NCBI GenBank assembly: GCA_015501595.1 | Contig: JADNRX010000123.1 | Span: 1-64,000 of the forward strand | Origin: Hymenopellis radicata | Lineage: Eukaryota > Basidiomycota > Agaricomycetes > Agaricales > Physalacriaceae | Length of the DNA stretch: 64,000 nucleotides | Direction: 5' to 3' | Part shown: positions 50,101 to 60,620 of the stretch, one piece after another | Position numbering within the stretch: position 1 is the first letter of the stretch | How the letters are laid out: every line of letters begins with the position of its first letter | Translations under genes and position numbers: made by a program | The notes under the pieces: generated by a model | The model's input: the letters and a program-made list of their open reading frames with translations, nothing else | The model's database searches: none | Told to the model about the DNA's origin: nothing

Positions 50101-50770
50101 CTACATTAATACAAGGGCAACGGTTGAGACAGCAGTCACGCCCATCAGGGCGTACCCTGTGCTGTACGCGCCCTTCACATTAAGAACTAAGTCAAGTAAG
50201 TACAAGAACGACGCCAGAAAGCATGGATAACATACATTTCCCCGCATCCCACACCAAATGTCTGATCCCATTGTAAGAGTGGTAGGCGAAAGGGAACGCT
50301 AGGAGCGTCTTTGCGCCATACTTGACCACCTCCGGTAGTCCAGCGACAAATTCGACGATATGCGCGCTATCAAATGTGCCCGGCGCAATGAGGTAGGCCA
50401 GGGAGAAGCTGTAGAGCAAGGCGCCTAACGCCAGACCAGTTGCACGATGTGCGCCAGAGAGGACGGACGGAAGTGGGTGGCGGTAAATAGTCATGTGGGG
50501 ACTGGTGGGACGCTGCAAGCGCTGCTTGTTGAGAATCTCAACGGCTGATGAAGGAGGCAGAGATTCCGTCTGGATTGACCTGCTAACCGGATCAGCCTGA
50601 GGACTGTATGCGGGGTAACGTTGCTCACCGTTTGGCGATTACATTAGCCTGTAATCGGGCTACAAAATTCAGTCAACTTGCTGTCAGTTTTGTTGAAGAA
50701 GCTCACCAAGCCTTGGAGCAAACACTGCCCGTCTAAGCGCAGGGCTCATGCCAATTCGCGAGGTGATCAT
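50101..50770 (-). CDS. SDHC: Succinate dehydrogenase cytochrome b560 subunit (complex II subunit C)
   Basis: It anchors SDHA/SDHB to the inner mitochondrial membrane, binds haem b and forms the ubiquinone site. Exons 50770-50707, 50659-50629, 50582 to about 50238, and a last short exon to 50101, with introns of 47, 46 and 49 nt. The first two exons encode a basic presequence (MITSRIGMSPALRRAVF...). The mature part begins near RPTSPHMTIYRHPLPSVLSG, with the family motif SGAHRATG, three membrane helices, and HSYNGIRHLVWD containing the haem His. It ends VSTVALVLM-TAG. It is the parent of the presequence copies at 54716-54924, 56583-56727 and 58950-59170. Confidence 0.92.
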
Positions 50771-51272
50771 GGTGTTCGGATAAGTACGGAAGCGGCGCCG
50801 AATCCCGATGAAACCTCGGTCAGTGTCACATGACCTCTACGGGTCCTTTCTGAGTTCTCATCTTGCCCTCTAGAGTCTAAGTATGGAGTCCTGCAGTACA
50901 CGCAGACCTTGGCAGGCACCCATATTACATGTCAGAGAAACATACTTTGATCAATAACGCTAATGTGGTAAACTCCCCGCCACCAAAGGTTATAGAGCAA
51001 ACACATTACATACGAACATACGCTCTCATACCCTTCCCCGGACCTTCGACCACTCATACACCCAACGCTCGGCCTCATTCCAAATATCCCCGCGTGGTCC
51101 CTCGCCTCATCCTATCATCCCCCGTCCGTTGATCGTGTAGTTGGGTGGGAAACCTGCTTCCCAAAAAGGAATAGAACATCGCCAACCAGATGCCAGCGGA
51201 CTAAAAAAGGCCTCCGTTTCCCTGGGCAGGCGCCTTAAATTGGAGATTAGTGGACGCCCCATTACATCTCTA
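50771..51272. promoter_or_regulatory. Divergent promoter SDHC / FAD monooxygenase
   Basis: 502 bp between head-to-head starts. Blocks such as TCACATGAC, TAACGCTAATGTGGTAAACT and GCTCTCATACCCTTC recur in the duplicated zone (about 54960-55160 and 57660-57860), so the promoter was copied along with the SDHC presequence exons. Confidence 0.65.
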
Positions 51273-53710
<2,438 letters not shown>

Positions 53711-53853
53711 ATCGACATGCAGGAAACGTGGTCTTCCCCGAGAATGGCTGGACTCTGAGGAAATGGGCGAACGAGCAAAGCAAATCGTTATTACCGACGA
53801 AATGAAAGATGATACAAAGTTACAGAAGGGTACAGCAACCGTTATTTAAAAAT

Positions 53854-54924
53854 TCATATTCCCACAACCGTCTTGAATGCTTCAAAACAGCTCAGGATCT
53901 GGCGTCTACTATCCAAAGGCATCATCCCCTCACTCTGCCGCTGAGCGGGCCGCGGAACAGGCGGCTGACAAAATGTCACAGTGGTGATGTCTGGAGGATG
54001 TGTACCATCTCGGATATGGGTTGACAGCGTCTCGGTGACAGGAATTTTGAAGAACGTCGGGGATGTGCCGGCCATAACGATTCCGGGCATGGCCTACGGA
54101 ACAAGATTAGACTACATATGCCAGGATCAAAAAATCCAACACAACTAACCTTTGTCGACAACAGATCTAATCCAACTGCCCTCCTCTTCGTGTTATTCTC
54201 TGTAAATGCGGCTATGGCCTTGGCAACAAGTTGAGCTTGCGCATCAATGACGGGATCTTCACCCTCGATATACTTGTCCTCTTGAACAAGGAGGAGGACC
54301 TCCTCAGAATGGCTATCAACGATGCAGGCAGCGGCCGTTCCGGCATGCCTATATTCTCCACATATGAGGAGATGGAGGGGCCTCCGACCACATGCCATCC
54401 AGGGTCGGGAAGTATAGCCCATGAGCTTGAAAAGCGCAACGACGAATTCAGGAACATCGGAGTGACGGGTGCGCATAGTGATCAGCTCGAGGTAAAGGAT
54501 CAGCTGTGCATGACGGTCTTGTAACATAGCTTTAGCATCGCGAACATTAAGTAGCTCTGCATCGACCACTGGTTCGGGTAACTGCCCGACGCCAAAAAAT
54601 GTGAGCGCATTCTGTTCTCGAAGGTGGATGTTGTACGACTCCAGGTCGTTCAAAGTCCACTGGCAGCTCTCGGACTCGGCGACGTGACGACGACTGAACG
54701 AACGCTGCACGTTGAGAATGTCGATTGGCCTACTGACCGGATCAGCCTGAGCACTACATGCGGGGTAACCTTTCTCACCGTTGGGCGATTACATTGGCCT
54801 GGTATCGGGCTCAGTGCGCAATTCAGTCAAGTTGCTGTCAGTTTTGTGGAAGGAGCTCACCGAGTCTTGGAGAAAACGATGTACGTCTGAGCGCAGAGAT
54901 CATGCCACATCGCGAGGCGATCAT
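53854..54924 (-). CDS. Chimeric protein A: SDHC-type mitochondrial presequence + nuclease-like domain
   Basis: Exons 54924-54861, 54809-54779, 54732-54150 and 54093-53854 join in frame into 305 residues. Exons 1-2 (MIASRCGMISALRRTSF...ARYQANVIAQR) equal SDHC exons 1-2 in length (64 and 31 nt), phase and sequence, and the first two introns are also homologous. From exon 3 the protein is unrelated: CQWTLNDLESYNIHL, FKLMGYTS, HLLICGEYRHA, then ACIVD (D171)...VLLLVQEDK (E183-D184-K185), AQLVAKAIAAFTENN, PGIVMAGTSPTFFKI and MMPLDSRRQIL...FKTVVGI. The Asp...Glu-x-Lys spacing plus a following Gln helix resembles PD-(D/E)XK nucleases (inference). Targeting to mitochondria is predicted from the presequence. 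This is the best-preserved of three copies. Confidence 0.75.
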
Positions 54925-55371
54925 GGCGGTTGAGGGTGTTGAAACGCTTCGAGTCAGCGACCAATCACATGAGAAACGCTCCCTGTCACATGACCGCTCC
55001 GCATCTTGCATTTTTGCATCAACCGCGAAGCGAGCTGGTCATGAGCCTAGCATCCACCCAACCGCCACCCAAAGGTTACAGAGCAAACCAAGAGCAAACG
55101 GTGACACATCACATAAGAAAACACCGCTCTCATACCCTTCTTCGGACCTTTGATCGGCCCAGTAAAAAGAAACCGTCCTCTCCTCTGAGTCCATCCTCGA
55201 GCCGACCCCCGTCTTCCCCCGCCAATGGCACAGCCGCATTTTCACTTCCTTTGGTGCCCTTGGTTCCCTCACGCTCTTTCGCGTCTACCTCCTCCCATAC
55301 ATTCGTGCCCACAGCCTCTACAATAGCACGGCGGTTGGTCTCCATTCCGCGCGACCTCTCCGGTATGACTC
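54925..55371. other. Copy of the SDHC/FAD-monooxygenase promoter
   Basis: From about 54960 to 55160 it aligns with 50790-51050 (TCACATGACCGCTCCG, GGTTACAGAGCAAAC, GCTCTCATACCCTTCTTCGG). The rest up to 55371 is Ser/Pro-type low-complexity sequence without a start. Confidence 0.6.
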
Positions 55372-56456
55372 ATGAAGTATGGTGTCGTCATGGGCTATTG
55401 CAGCAGGAGAAGATATACTGACAAGTGTCTCCTTCATATTGTGTTGACGGCGAGACGAAGCATTGTCTGGTCCCTGCCAGTGTGGCGCGTCGTCGTTAAA
55501 CCCTCCTTCCCTCGCTGGATCCTCTTCATTGGCACTCTTCCAACAATCTCTCTGATCAAACCAAGGACTGACGGTGTATTCGCGGATTACTTGATTGCAA
55601 GCGCCATCGTCGCCTTCATCCTGACGGCATCGGACCTAATTCTCCTCTCACAGCCCCAACGAGAGTTTCGCTGGATACGGCAGAAGGATGCGTCCATTGA
55701 GAATGCGTCTTTGGGCGCGCGAGCGAGATGGGGAGTACGCCTGCTATCTAGCGCGCGCGGTGTGGATGGAGCCACGAGCCGGGTTTATTCCATACAGACG
55801 TGCCTCCGGGAACGTCTCGTCTTTCCTTTGTCGCAAAGAAGATCCCCACCACGCGCCTCTGGGCACTGAAAGTAGGCTTGTCTGCATTATACATCATGCA
55901 CTGCACGACCATGGCATGGGAAATTGGGGGCATGTTCTTTTGGCTATTGGCGATCCAATCGAATGCAGAGAGCTTGTCCATAACGCTATCAGCCTTGTTT
56001 CGGTGACGCTGCACCTCTCCCGCCAGAAGACTGGTCTTCGGCATGTGGATATTGGCGCGACGCGTATACGCTTCGCGAGTTTTTGGGGTAGGTTCGTCTT
56101 CTTCGTAGTTCCGACATCGTTTCCACCGAGCCCGTAGACGAACATGGCGTCAATGGCTACGAAGGGTGAGCAGAGATTTACAGAGGTTTCAATATGACTT
56201 ACAATCTATACAGTTCCTTTCCGCGCATGACAAGTTCGTGGCACGAAGAGTGCTCTGTCTTAAGGCAGGATCGAAGGTGGCGTCCCTATACACCGCCTTC
56301 TTCCTATCCGGAGTGATACACTGCGCCGGAGAATACGTCGTTGGACTACCCCATGTGATTCTTTCTTCTTCTCCAAGCATTACTAGCAGGGCGGTTTTGC
56401 CGGTGGAGTGGTACGCCCTAGTAGCAATGAGCGTAGTCAGAGAATGTATGCCTTGA
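55372..56456 (+). pseudogene. Decayed MBOAT acyltransferase paralogue
   Basis: It matches the gene at 43432: VVKPSFPRWILFIGTL, FILTASDLILLSQPQREFRW, LGARARWGVRLLSSARGV, then a frame change (GTSRLSFVAKKIP) and FLSAHDKFVARRVLCLKAG, AFFLSGVIHCAGEYV, VLPVEWYALVA. About 100 residues of the middle are lost or scrambled, and the N-terminal Met and helix are missing. One intron (about 56166-56213) is conserved in position. The stop is at 56456. Confidence 0.75.
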
Positions 56457-56582
56457 GATGGTTTTGAGAATCTATAATACCGGTCAAATATGCGGGGAAG
56501 GAAGTATATACTAATCCTCTCTTATGGATGTCTGAGAGTGCTCTGAGGTTCATGTGATTGGCAGACAACCTCTCCGTCCACC

Positions 56583-57583
56583 ATGATCACCTCGCGACTT
56601 GGCATGAGCCCTACGCTTAGACGGATAGCGTTTACTTCAAGGCTTGGTGAGCTCGCTCAACATGACTGACGACACATTGACTCAATTCTGTAGCCCGAGT
56701 ACAGGGTACTGTTATTGCCCAACAACGGCGAGCACGCACGGTGACTCCATGCAGCGCTCCGGCTGACCTGATTCGCAGACCATTCCAGACCTCCCCGGTC
56801 CTCGAAAATCGCAGGAAGAAACGCGCCAGCGATCCGCGCCCCAAAGATGGCGGCTGCTGGACCCGCAAAGACCTGGAGTCTTACAATATCCACATTGAGG
56901 AACAAGATCCCCTCACCTTCTTCGATCTACAAGAGCTCCCAGAACCCACGGTTACTACCGACTTTTTAAACTCTACCTCTGCTTCCGATTCCTTCTATCT
57001 CGAGCACGCTAACGCTATGCCTGGCACTGGTGAACCAGAATTCGCTTTGATGGCTGTTGTTGTCTTTGCTGGCGAGCTTTTTAATATCATGGGCTATACT
57101 CCGAGTCATGAAACCCGGACGGCGCACAGACACCTGGACTTTCATTTCCGCATATGTGGCAAATTGAAGCATGCAAGGGCTGACATCTGCATTGTCGATT
57201 TTGTTCAGGACAGTATCCTCCTCCTTGTTCGGGAGGACAAGGGCCAGGGTCAAGAGCCCAATACTGATGTACAAGCCCAACTTGTTGCTGCCGCTGTAGC
57301 TGCATTTACCAAGAATAACATGAATAGGAGGGCAGCTGGACTAGATCTGTTGTCGGAAAAGGTGTTGTGTTGGATTTTTTGATCCCATATGTACTCTAAT
57401 CTTGTTCCCTAGGTCATGCCCGGCATTGTTATCGCGGGCACATCACCGACGTTCTTCAAAATTCCCGTTAGCAAGTCATTATCAAGCCATATCCGAGGAG
57501 GTACATATCCTCCAGACATCACCACCGTGACGTTTTGTCAGCCACCTGTTCCGCGGCCCGCTCAGCGGCGGAGGAGGGGATAG
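56583..57583 (+). CDS. Chimeric protein B: SDHC-type presequence + nuclease-like domain, C-terminus clipped
   Basis: Exons 56583-56646, 56694-57361 and 57413-57583 give 300 residues. Exon 1 (MITSRLGMSPTLRRIAF) is the SDHC presequence copy. The counterpart of SDHC intron 2 (56728-56778, 51 nt) now starts GCGAGC and is in frame, so it is either read as 17 codons or spliced with a GC donor; both keep the frame. The domain follows as in copy A: CWTRKDLESYNIHI, FNIMGYTP, FRICGKLKHARADICIVD...LLLVREDK, AQLVAAAVAAFTKNN, MPGIVIAGTSPTFFKI. One base is missing near 57565-57575, so translation ends RRRRG-TAG and the conserved last 25 or so residues (PLDSRRQIL...TVVGI) lie in another frame. Confidence 0.65.
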
Positions 57584-57639
57584 TGCCTCTGGATAGCAGA
57601 CGCCAGATCCTGAGCTGTTATGAAGCATTTAAGACAGTT

Positions 57640-57860
57640 GTGGGAATATGATTTTTTTATGACCGCTCCACATCCTTTCTCATCTTGTCCTCTATGGATT
57701 TCTGCAGTAAGTACACTTGGGGGTTTGATCCATAACGCTAAGCTGGTAAACTCCCGCCATCGATAACCACCCCCGCCCAAAGGGTTACGGAGCAAACAGC
57801 GACACATTCCATACGAAGACACCGCTCTCACTGTACCCTTCTTCGAACCTTTGACCGGCC
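57640..57860. repeat. Second copy of the SDHC promoter segment
   Basis: GACCGCTCCACATCC, TAACGCTAAGCTGGTAAACTC, AAAGGGTTACGGAGCAAACA and CTCTCACTGTACCCTTCTTC align in order with 50836-51040 and 55000-55160. It is not followed by an intact gene start. Confidence 0.65.
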
Positions 57861-57939
57861 CAGTACAAAGAGGGCTGAGGCAAATTGAGGCTGATCGAGG
57901 CTGAGCGATGCAAACGTCGATGGAGTGCGTCGATATTTG

Positions 57940-58117
57940 CGACACCGATCGAGGCAAATCTCGCAGCCAGTCACTGATGCTGGACTCTGAGGAAATGGGC
58001 AAACGAGCAAAGCGAAGCGTTCAAATTACCGACGAAATGATGATGATACAAAGTTACAGCGGTGCGTTGAAGGGAATATTTGATGTTGTGCTTACAGGAG
58101 TCCAATATCAGGAAAAA
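57940..58117. repeat. Copy of the 3' flank of the FAD monooxygenase
   Basis: GAGGAAATGGGCAAACGAGC and TTACCGACGAAATGATGATG repeat 53756-53815, directly before chimera C, just as the original flank stands before chimera A. This shows that the block of monooxygenase end plus chimera was duplicated as a unit (about 53740-54960 to 57940-59170). Confidence 0.65.
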
Positions 58118-58949
58118 TCATATTCCCACAACAGTCTTGAATGCTTCATAACAGCTCAGAATCTGGCGTCTACTATCCAAAGGCATCATCCCCCCGCACC
58201 GGTTGGGCCGCGGCACAGGTGGCCGACAAAATGTCACAGTGGTGATGTCTAGAGGATATGTGCCATGTCGAATATGAGTTGTCAAGGTCTCAGTGATAGG
58301 AATTTTGAAGAAGGTCGGTGATGTGCCGACCAGAATGATTCCGGGCATGATCTAAGGAAGAATAAGATTGCGATCAAACACAAAATTCGACGCGACTAAC
58401 CTTTGCCGACAACGGATCTAGTCCCTCTACCATCCTATTCACGTTATTCTCTGTAAACGCAGCTACAGCCGCGGCGACAAGTTGCGCTTGTGCAATGATG
58501 GACCCTCGAATGCGCTTGTCCTCCCGAAGAAGGAGGCGGATCTCGTTCTCAGGAGGACGATCCATGATGCAGACATGAGTCTTGGCGCGCATACGTTTGC
58601 CACACATGAGGAAATAGTGGTCCAGCCGTCTGCGTGCCACCCGGTCGCGGTAAGCATAGCCTAGGACGTTGAAAAGTTCGACAGCAAAGTCAGGAACACC
58701 GGTATGAATCACGGCGAGATCGAGTAACCTGAGCAGGTGTGCATGATGGTCTTGAACCATATCGCGAGCGTCGCGTACGTTGAGTAGCTCTGGATCAACC
58801 GCTGGCTCTGGTAACTGCTGCACGCCGAAGAACGTGAGGGCACTCTGTTGCTCAAGGTGGATGTTGTACGACTCGAGGTCGTTCAAAGTCCAATGGCTGC
58901 CAGGCTTGGCGACGTAGTGACTGAATCGACGCTGCGCGTTGAGAATCAT
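58118..58949 (-). CDS. Chimera family copy C: nuclease-like domain without in-frame presequence
   Basis: Exons 58949-58401 and 58351-58118 join in frame into 260 residues starting MILNAQRRFSHYVAKPG. Domain as in copies A and B: HWTLNDLESYNIHL, FNVLGYA, HYFLMCGKRMRA, HVCIMD...IRLLLREDK, AQLVAAAVAAFTENN, MPGIILVGTSPTFFKI, GGMMPLDSRRQIL, ending AFKTVVGI. The domain is complete, with a small deletion between PRPNRC and GGMM. Upstream the presequence exons exist (58950-59170), but a 13-bp deletion in exon 2 breaks their link, so translation would begin at 58949 without targeting signal, or the gene is dying. Confidence 0.65.
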
Positions 58950-59170
58950 GATGTCGATTGGCCTGCCGACCGGATCAGCCTGAGCACTGCATGTGGGGAA
59001 ACCTCGCTCACCGTTTGGCCTGCAATGGGCTAGTACACAGTTCAGTCAAATTGCGGTCAGTTTTGTTGAAGGAGCTCACCAAGCCTTGGAGCAAATACTG
59101 TCCGTCTAAGCGCGGGGCTCATGCCAATTCGTAGGGTGATCATGGTGGTCGAGCAACAACGCTAAGTCAT
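58950..59170 (-). pseudogene. SDHC presequence exons and promoter, out of frame
   Basis: Exon 1 (MITLRIGMSPALRRTVF, ATG at about 59142) is intact and followed by a GTGAGC intron. Exon 2 is CCCATTGCAGGCCAAACG, 18 nt where the parent has 31. The deletion removes 13 bp and changes phase, so no splicing choice I can find joins it to copy C without a stop. Confidence 0.65.
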
Positions 59171-59439
59171 ACACAATCGTGTCGGAGGATGGGAGTTTGG
59201 GAAGAGAGAGACAGCGGTCGGATATTTCTATTTACGGACATAGGCACCGAATAATACGAGAGACTCGTTCCTTTCCTTGGCTTGCCTTGCGCTCGTTACG
59301 GGCGCGAAGAACGAGCGCCCTAACTAGCGGTCCAGCATGCAAAGAGTCGTTATTGAGTCCAATGAATCTGAATCACATGAGAAACGCTCTCTGTCACATG
59401 ACCGCTCCTGGATTTCTGGAGAATGACCCAAGAATGCAT
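59171..59439. other. Flanking duplicated sequence
   Basis: It contains the TCACATGAGAAACGCTCTCT block also found at 54966-54990; otherwise non-coding. Confidence 0.45.
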
Positions 59440-59830
59440 TCTCGATTCGTGCGACTACGAAAAAAGCGGTCAGGTATGAAGATTCTCCTTTGATACTTGA
59501 GCCTCAGCGTTGGTCGAGCTGACTACCTCGGGTTTTTGCGCTGTCCTCCGGCCCACTGCTGAGTCCGTGCGCAGAGGCCGATGTGGATACCACCGGAAGC
59601 ACAAGGAGGACAGGCCCGGGCGTACAAGGCCTTTGGCGTTTCCGGACATGGTGCGGGCGTTGTGGTCAGGCCAGACGGTTAGATTGTAATGGTCGCGCCT
59701 TTGAGGAAGGCGGATGACCTGACTGACTCTGCAGTCATGAACCTATCGATTGATACGCGGGGAAAACTAGCTGCCGGACTCTGAAGTGGGTGAACGAGCA
59801 AAGCGACTTGATATTATGATACACGTTTAG
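59440..59830 (+). pseudogene. FAD monooxygenase C-terminal fragment 1
   Basis: It aligns with 53405-53815: CGTGCGACTACGAAAAAAGC, AGGCCGATGTGGATAC, GCGTACAAGGCCTTTGGCGT (YKAFGVSGHGAGVVVRPD) and GTCGCGCCTTTGAGGAAGGC. Frame shifts and a TAG after RPDG make it non-functional. Confidence 0.75.
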
Positions 59831-60364: not shown

Positions 60365-60620
60365 GACGACTTTGGGGCGACTTCGGTGTCACCGCACACG
60401 GCGCGGTGGTCGTAGTAAGGCCAGGCGGTTAGATTGGAATGGTCGCACCTTTGGACAAGGCGGATGACCTGACGAGTTATTTCTCTGCATTCTTGAGCCT
60501 ATGGGAGAAAAACTAGCAGCCGTGGTCTGAAGAAGTGGGCGAACGAGCAAAGCGACTTGTTATTACCAACACAATGATACAGGTTTAGAGCAATGACTTG
60601 ATGGAATGTATGATACAGCA
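60365..60620 (+). pseudogene. FAD monooxygenase C-terminal fragment 2
   Basis: A second copy of the monooxygenase tail: TTCGGTGTCACCGCACACGG, GCGGTGGTCGTAGTAAGGCC, GTCGCACCTTTGGACAAGGC, TATTTCTCTGCATTC. The segment repeats fragment 1 about 760 bp downstream, including the shared 3' flank, so these two are tandem copies. Confidence 0.75.

Follow-up and report, generated by a model that had tools for sequence, protein, structure and literature searches.

The 5′ end of an SDHC gene joined to nuclease-fold genes in the mushroom Hymenopellis radicata

A stretch of 64,000 nucleotides from the mushroom Hymenopellis radicata (the window) carries the SDHC gene SDHC2 together with other genes that share its beginning. 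Five neighbouring nuclease-fold genes begin with the 5′ part of SDHC, three of them inside the window (A, B and C) and two beyond it on the same contig (D and E). We consider it likely that a 5′ fragment of SDHC2 was captured in frame by a gene of the PD-(D/E)XK fold, once, that the resulting chimera was then amplified, and that the presequence still acts, which would place the protein in the mitochondrial matrix.

Five genes that begin with SDHC

The 5′ layout of SDHC2 consists of a 64-nt exon 1, an intron of 47 nt, a 31-nt exon 2, an intron of 49 nt and then exon 3. Exons 1 and 2 with both introns stand directly 5′ of one non-SDHC domain at the three window sites named in the initial annotation of this DNA, whose count of three copies rises to five with D and E (Table 1). 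A 288-bp module query, reaching from 90 nt before the SDHC2 ATG to just inside exon 3, matched the 75-Mb assembly in six places, all on this contig (C258) and corresponding to SDHC2 and the five chimeras, with expectation (E) values for the latter of 1.3e-53 to 2.4e-34 (A, 1.3e-53; B, 3.0e-38; C, 1.1e-52); these whole-genome values rule out chance similarity of the module. The same query revealed no other gene with the SDHC module at E 0.001, and the second SDHC gene, SDHC1, was not matched by it. Four protein queries of the genome with the non-SDHC domain matched only the five chimeras and thus no unfused copy, although divergent copies could be missed by such queries.

The in-frame splice from the SDHC exons of copy A to the new domain, as initially described, was recovered. 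The accompanying claim that the copies keep exons of 64 and 31 nt in the same phases is true of exon 2 in A, which has 31 nt and the SDHC phases; in C this exon has 18 nt and is off frame by one, in D it has 19 nt and is in frame, and B and E, with GC in place of GT at the donor of intron 2, now read the former intron as protein. Nor does the join fall directly after exon 2: SDHC homology continues into SDHC exon 3, and the join lies inside that exon, hence not in an intron. One exon-3 deletion is common to A, C and D, and B and E retain a different exon-3 remnant. The cleanest join is that of the Mucidula protein P0002, which keeps the SDHC residues QRLQRP and continues with FSSVTKSGSNWT, at a place where plain members of the family start MANLIRSAKSGSDWT. 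A, B, D and E each have a single in-frame ATG ahead of the domain, that of SDHC exon 1; C has an ATG of its own in exon 3. Beyond the early stop of B the homologous tail continues in another frame to 57657, marking a frameshift near the C-terminus.

When we spliced D, E, B and SDHC2, the products were identical, letter for letter, to the deposited models P0001, P0004, P0013 and P0050, respectively. Four deposited Hymenopellis radicata models being reproduced exactly, the earlier placement of the host in Polyporales was in error; both genera concerned, Hymenopellis and Mucidula, belong to Physalacriaceae, Agaricales. The genome paper gives the strain as IJFM A160, and its methods section reports annotations improved with RNA-seq, the genes concerned being unnamed in that section (PMC8480192).

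Origin and age of the fusion

We aligned 47 rows of the domain family, comprising 3 chimeras, 5 rows without a visible N-terminus and 39 others. The module is absent from all 39 non-chimeric rows with a visible N-terminus, and in 34 of these no more than 15 residues precede the domain; the longer N-termini are those of P0005, P0015, P0043, P0046 and P0049. With relatives lacking the module and deposited models spanning the join, the proposal that a presequence was captured by an unrelated family and the product amplified beside the parent gene was supported. Relatives in which the domain carries an unrelated N-terminus had initially been held to speak against a capture; they do carry another N-terminus, and this gives the direction of change and not a refutation. 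P0046, a distant family member on a 1.6-kb contig, starts MWRPIRARGLRRLGRSPTPNSRSAKSGNH, a sequence that is Arg-rich and unlike the plain start, and possibly represents another presequence or a wrong start.

In a domain tree of 51 rows the five H. radicata copies, two Mucidula rows and P0049 form one clade (support 100/98), to which the plain rows P0023, P0025 and P0037 are sister. P0033, from Mucidula, is a model whose start lies within the domain. P0049, from a contig of 13,995 bases, sits inside the chimera clade on a long branch with a different 63-residue N-terminus, and its start is possibly wrong. Because Mucidula mucida also has the fusion, the fusion is most simply older than H. radicata alone, contrary to the idea that this fungus alone had made it, and would predate the Hymenopellis-Mucidula split. 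Armillaria was set aside as a dating outgroup, its rows (P0011 and P0039) lying on another branch of the family, and an upper bound was taken from an SDHC tree instead. In this tree of 24 rows, hand-chosen from 120 listed and with SDHC1 added, SDHC1 and SDHC2 group with Mucidula P0051 and P0165 in a single clade (100/99), separately from Guyanagaster and Desarmillaria, so the donor SDHC2 arose in the Hymenopellis-Mucidula lineage. The origin of the family Physalacriaceae is put at about 86 million years ago (PMC8480192).

Two SDHC genes depart from the usual 5′ end. Exon 1 of SDHC1 (L002 1136-1860; G000:C518) is by eye off frame by one relative to SDHC2, and the Mucidula SDHC model P0051 begins only at exon 3; either the usual presequence was lost in both or the sequences contain errors.

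The introns of the chimeras tell discordant histories. A and C differ at 13 of 99 sites in introns 1 and 2 and at 17 of 49 in intron 3 (p 0.004), and a similar imbalance separates A from D (16/99 and 17/49, p 0.02); between A and B it is reversed, with 33/96 differences in introns 1 and 2 and 2/51 in intron 3 (p 1.2e-5). By these comparisons the chimera copies are mosaics that evidently exchange segments, and for that reason a single capture with exchange and repeated captures are not fully separable.

Selection and N-terminal composition

The ratio of nonsynonymous to synonymous divergence (dN/dS) of the domain is 0.38-0.56 in all 10 copy pairs, with dN below dS at p<0.02 in nine of them and p=0.051 for B-E, the pairs being non-independent. 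At the level of sequence divergence, this shows purifying selection on the domain. Constraint on exon 1 was not shown by dN/dS, in a comparison from which one inserted codon of D was left out. Identity to SDHC2 is 80-91% in exon 1 and 74-89% in intron 1; A, C and D reach 82-86% in intron 2, and B and E, in which that intron is now coding, 64-73%.

In A, B, D, E and P0002 the N-terminus carries a net charge of +5 or +6, with five Arg in residues 1-30 and the first acidic residue (D/E) at positions 32-57, and three plain members have a net charge of -2 or -3 with a D at position 13. A motif R-x-F[S/Q], which by general rules would be a presequence cleavage site, occurs at or near the join in the same five proteins. 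Judged by N-terminal composition, the first 30-45 residues probably direct mitochondrial import; a role in the matrix is less certain than import itself. The indels of exons 1 and 2 in A, B, D and E (3, 3 and 12 nt) are all multiples of three, an argument weakened by intron 1, whose indels (4, 3, 9 and 3 nt) are mostly multiples of three too.

The recipient domain

The domain found no match by sequence in Pfam, NCBIfam or the Protein Data Bank (PDB). Its predicted structure contains the PD-(D/E)XK core fold, in which catalysis depends on the residues D..(D/E)xK. Of the 41 plain rows, 32 retain this motif, as do P0049 and E and, judged by eye, B. It is disrupted in P0002 and in D, where H replaces D and R replaces K; inspection by eye shows it disrupted also in C (D to H) and A (D to A). 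The fold of mL37 and mL65, both mitoribosomal proteins of animals that have been described as nucleases turned to a new use, was matched across the whole domain, yet at about 10% identity and with Foldseek template modelling (TM) scores of only 0.27-0.47. None of the 47 family rows matches the Pfam family PDCD9 (PF07147) at E 1, and a PDCD9 search of the genome gave one match, elsewhere (C1151), at E 0.02, below the cut-off.

A bolder interpretation, which we put forward with considerable doubt, is that in this oudemansielloid mushroom presequence capture has carried a PD-(D/E)XK-fold family into mitochondria and its catalytically damaged copies bind nucleic acid, perhaps rRNA. This would repeat, recently and independently, the animal route from nuclease to mL37/mL65, and copies of the active type (B, E) would still neighbour those of the damaged type (A, C, D). 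The family of P0009, from mushrooms and relatives, is widespread and without a Pfam entry; its fold is that of mL37/mL65, most members have an active site of the nuclease type, and the family may be relevant to the origin of animal mL37/mL65.

Weighing the explanations

Under the single capture that we favour, a duplicated SDHC gene, SDHC2, would have supplied a 5′ fragment comprising the start codon, presequence exons 1 and 2 and the start of exon 3, and this fragment would have been joined in frame, most simply once and in the Hymenopellis-Mucidula lineage, to a PD-(D/E)XK-fold gene from a mushroom family whose members usually begin with MANLIRSAKSGSDWT or a like sequence. The chimera would then have multiplied beside SDHC2 to five copies that swap segments. 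The first 30-45 residues would still be a cleavable mitochondrial presequence, and in the matrix the proteins might act on nucleic acid, A, C and D as non-catalytic binders and B and E possibly as nucleases.

Several observations weigh against this history. The best tree does not unite the six clear chimeras in a strict clade and requires three label changes; these arise because P0033 and P0049 fall among the clear chimeras, and chimera monophyly is not rejected by the approximately unbiased (AU) test (p 0.15). C has lost its frame and B is cut short, the deposited models of E (P0004) and B (P0013) carry the label partial, and A and C have no deposited model among the 49 proteins listed. Exon 1 is not clearly more conserved than the introns (in A, 80% versus 86-87%), its dN/dS is 0.79 between SDHC2 and A and 0.68 between SDHC2 and D, and SDHC2 and B are separated there by seven amino-acid-changing differences and no silent ones. 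Chimeras and plain members are not told apart by their hydrophobic moment. In a neutral simulation, an acid-free N-terminus of net +5 is retained with a chance of 0.15 in A, 0.19 in B, 0.15 in E and 0.27 in D, so the support from composition is modest.

The exon 1 divergence and dN/dS, the simulated chances and the frameshifts in B and C would also suit an SDHC piece that brought a start codon and leader only, with or without a promoter, and that persists as an extension without a targeting role or within a slowly decaying cluster. We think this somewhat unlikely, given the acid-free, +5/+6, five-Arg N-termini of A, B, D, E (whose start is open) and P0002, the purifying selection on the domain and, subject to the reservation about intron 1, the indel lengths in exons 1 and 2. 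It is less likely still that the domain copies diverged first and that A, C/D and B/E each then received the SDHC2 5′ end in independent captures. Such a history would account for A being closer to C and D in introns 1 and 2 than in intron 3 and for the distinct exon-3 remnant of B/E, but the exon-3 deletion is common to A, C and D, the protein P0002 fits the same deletion, and segment exchange, as between A and B, already explains the discordance. That the SDHC 5′ fragments arrived upstream by segmental duplication as an accident of position, the domain genes starting elsewhere, strikes us as very improbable: the region is indeed full of duplicated fragments and C could start from its exon-3 ATG, but the module stands on 5/5 domain copies, every module copy except the parent stands on a domain, A, B, D and E offer no other in-frame ATG before the domain, and the join is present in deposited models of two genera.

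Upstream sequences and neighbouring features

The homologous promoter blocks seen at first, and the capture of a promoter drawn from them, were retained weakly for A, which has in common with SDHC2 a distal block and a 27-nt box, and were not retained for the other copies. The distal block recurs at two places that adjoin no gene start: 57724-57871, between B and C on their 3′ sides, and C258 73629-73773, likewise between D and E. Because of these copies, and because a 300-bp promoter query matched itself only, the case for promoter capture is weak and confined to A. A bacterial promoter scan, not suited to a fungus, returned nothing.

Pfam named one of ten open reading frames of the window, a glycosyltransferase. 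A probable FAD monooxygenase gene adjoins A at 52068-52556 (+), its FAD_binding_3 match (E 0.0022) lying below the cut-off. End fragments of this gene recur beside C (repeats D3 and D6; the stretches involved are 53587-53734, 59631-59723 and 60381-60528), which suggests larger duplication units.

Table 1. Positions of SDHC2, the chimeric genes and their upstream elements (window coordinates unless C258 is given)
Feature	Position	Strand	Remarks
SDHC2 (parent)	50101..50770	-	174 aa; equals deposited Sdh3p model P0050; Pfam Sdh_cyt 2.1e-26
SDHC2 exons	exon 1 50770-50707, exon 2 50659-50629, exon 3 50579-50236, exon 4 50186-50101	-	
Chimera A	53854..54924	-	exon 1 54924-54861, exon 2 54809-54779, exon 3 54729-54150, exon 4 54093-53854; 304 aa
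Chimera B	56583..57583	+	exon 1 56583-56646, intron 56647-56693; equals deposited P0013 (300 aa)
Chimera B, rest	exon 2, former intron 2 and exon 3 as one exon to 57361; intron 57362-57412; last exon to early stop 57583	+	
Chimera C	58118..59143	-	exon 1 59143-59080, exon 2 59029-59012, exon 3 58962-58401, exon 4 58351-58118
Chimera D, module	C258:72347	+	beyond the window
Chimera E, module	C258:74905	-	beyond the window
CATGTGAC box (27 nt) upstream of SDHC2	50817..50843	-	repeat family D16; 74% to A, 78% to C; short, weak
CATGTGAC box upstream of A	54977..55003	-	repeat families D16/D18
CATGTGAC repeat upstream of C	59371..59408	-	displaced, ~230 nt from the C ATG; D18, 97% to the A copy
Distal upstream block of SDHC2	51001..51049	-	common to A: 84% over 50 nt, E 2e-8
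Distal upstream block of A	55104..55153	-	common to SDHC2

Comparison with known systems

Presequence transfer itself is already known, in plants, where the nuclear genes for rps10 and cytochrome c1 have borrowed mitochondrial presequences and sdh3 of Cupressaceae and Cephalotaxaceae carries that of a heat-shock protein (PMC8317393, PMC6198282). The initial annotation knew of no described fungal case, and searches of the open-licence literature listed none by title and start of abstract. If import is true, it offers a fungal example of a protein becoming mitochondrial through the start of another gene, in which donor, recipient and plain family are all still readable, and, the recipient having the fold of two animal mitoribosomal proteins, early steps of recruitment would be testable.

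The likeness to plant presequence transfer is that the 5′ part of one gene stands in frame before another coding sequence as its mitochondrial presequence, here a probable one. Unlike the plant recipients, which are known mitochondrial proteins, the recipient here is a nuclease-fold family without a known mitochondrial member. In the mushroom, moreover, SDHC serves as donor and the join falls within an exon. Set beside PD-(D/E)XK nucleases such as the N-terminal domain of BpuSI, A, C, D and P0002 have lost at least one catalytic residue; set beside mL37 and mL65 (MRPS30) of the animal mitoribosome, the mushroom genes are fungal, amplified and without a PDCD9 match, and a ribosomal role for them is conjectural.

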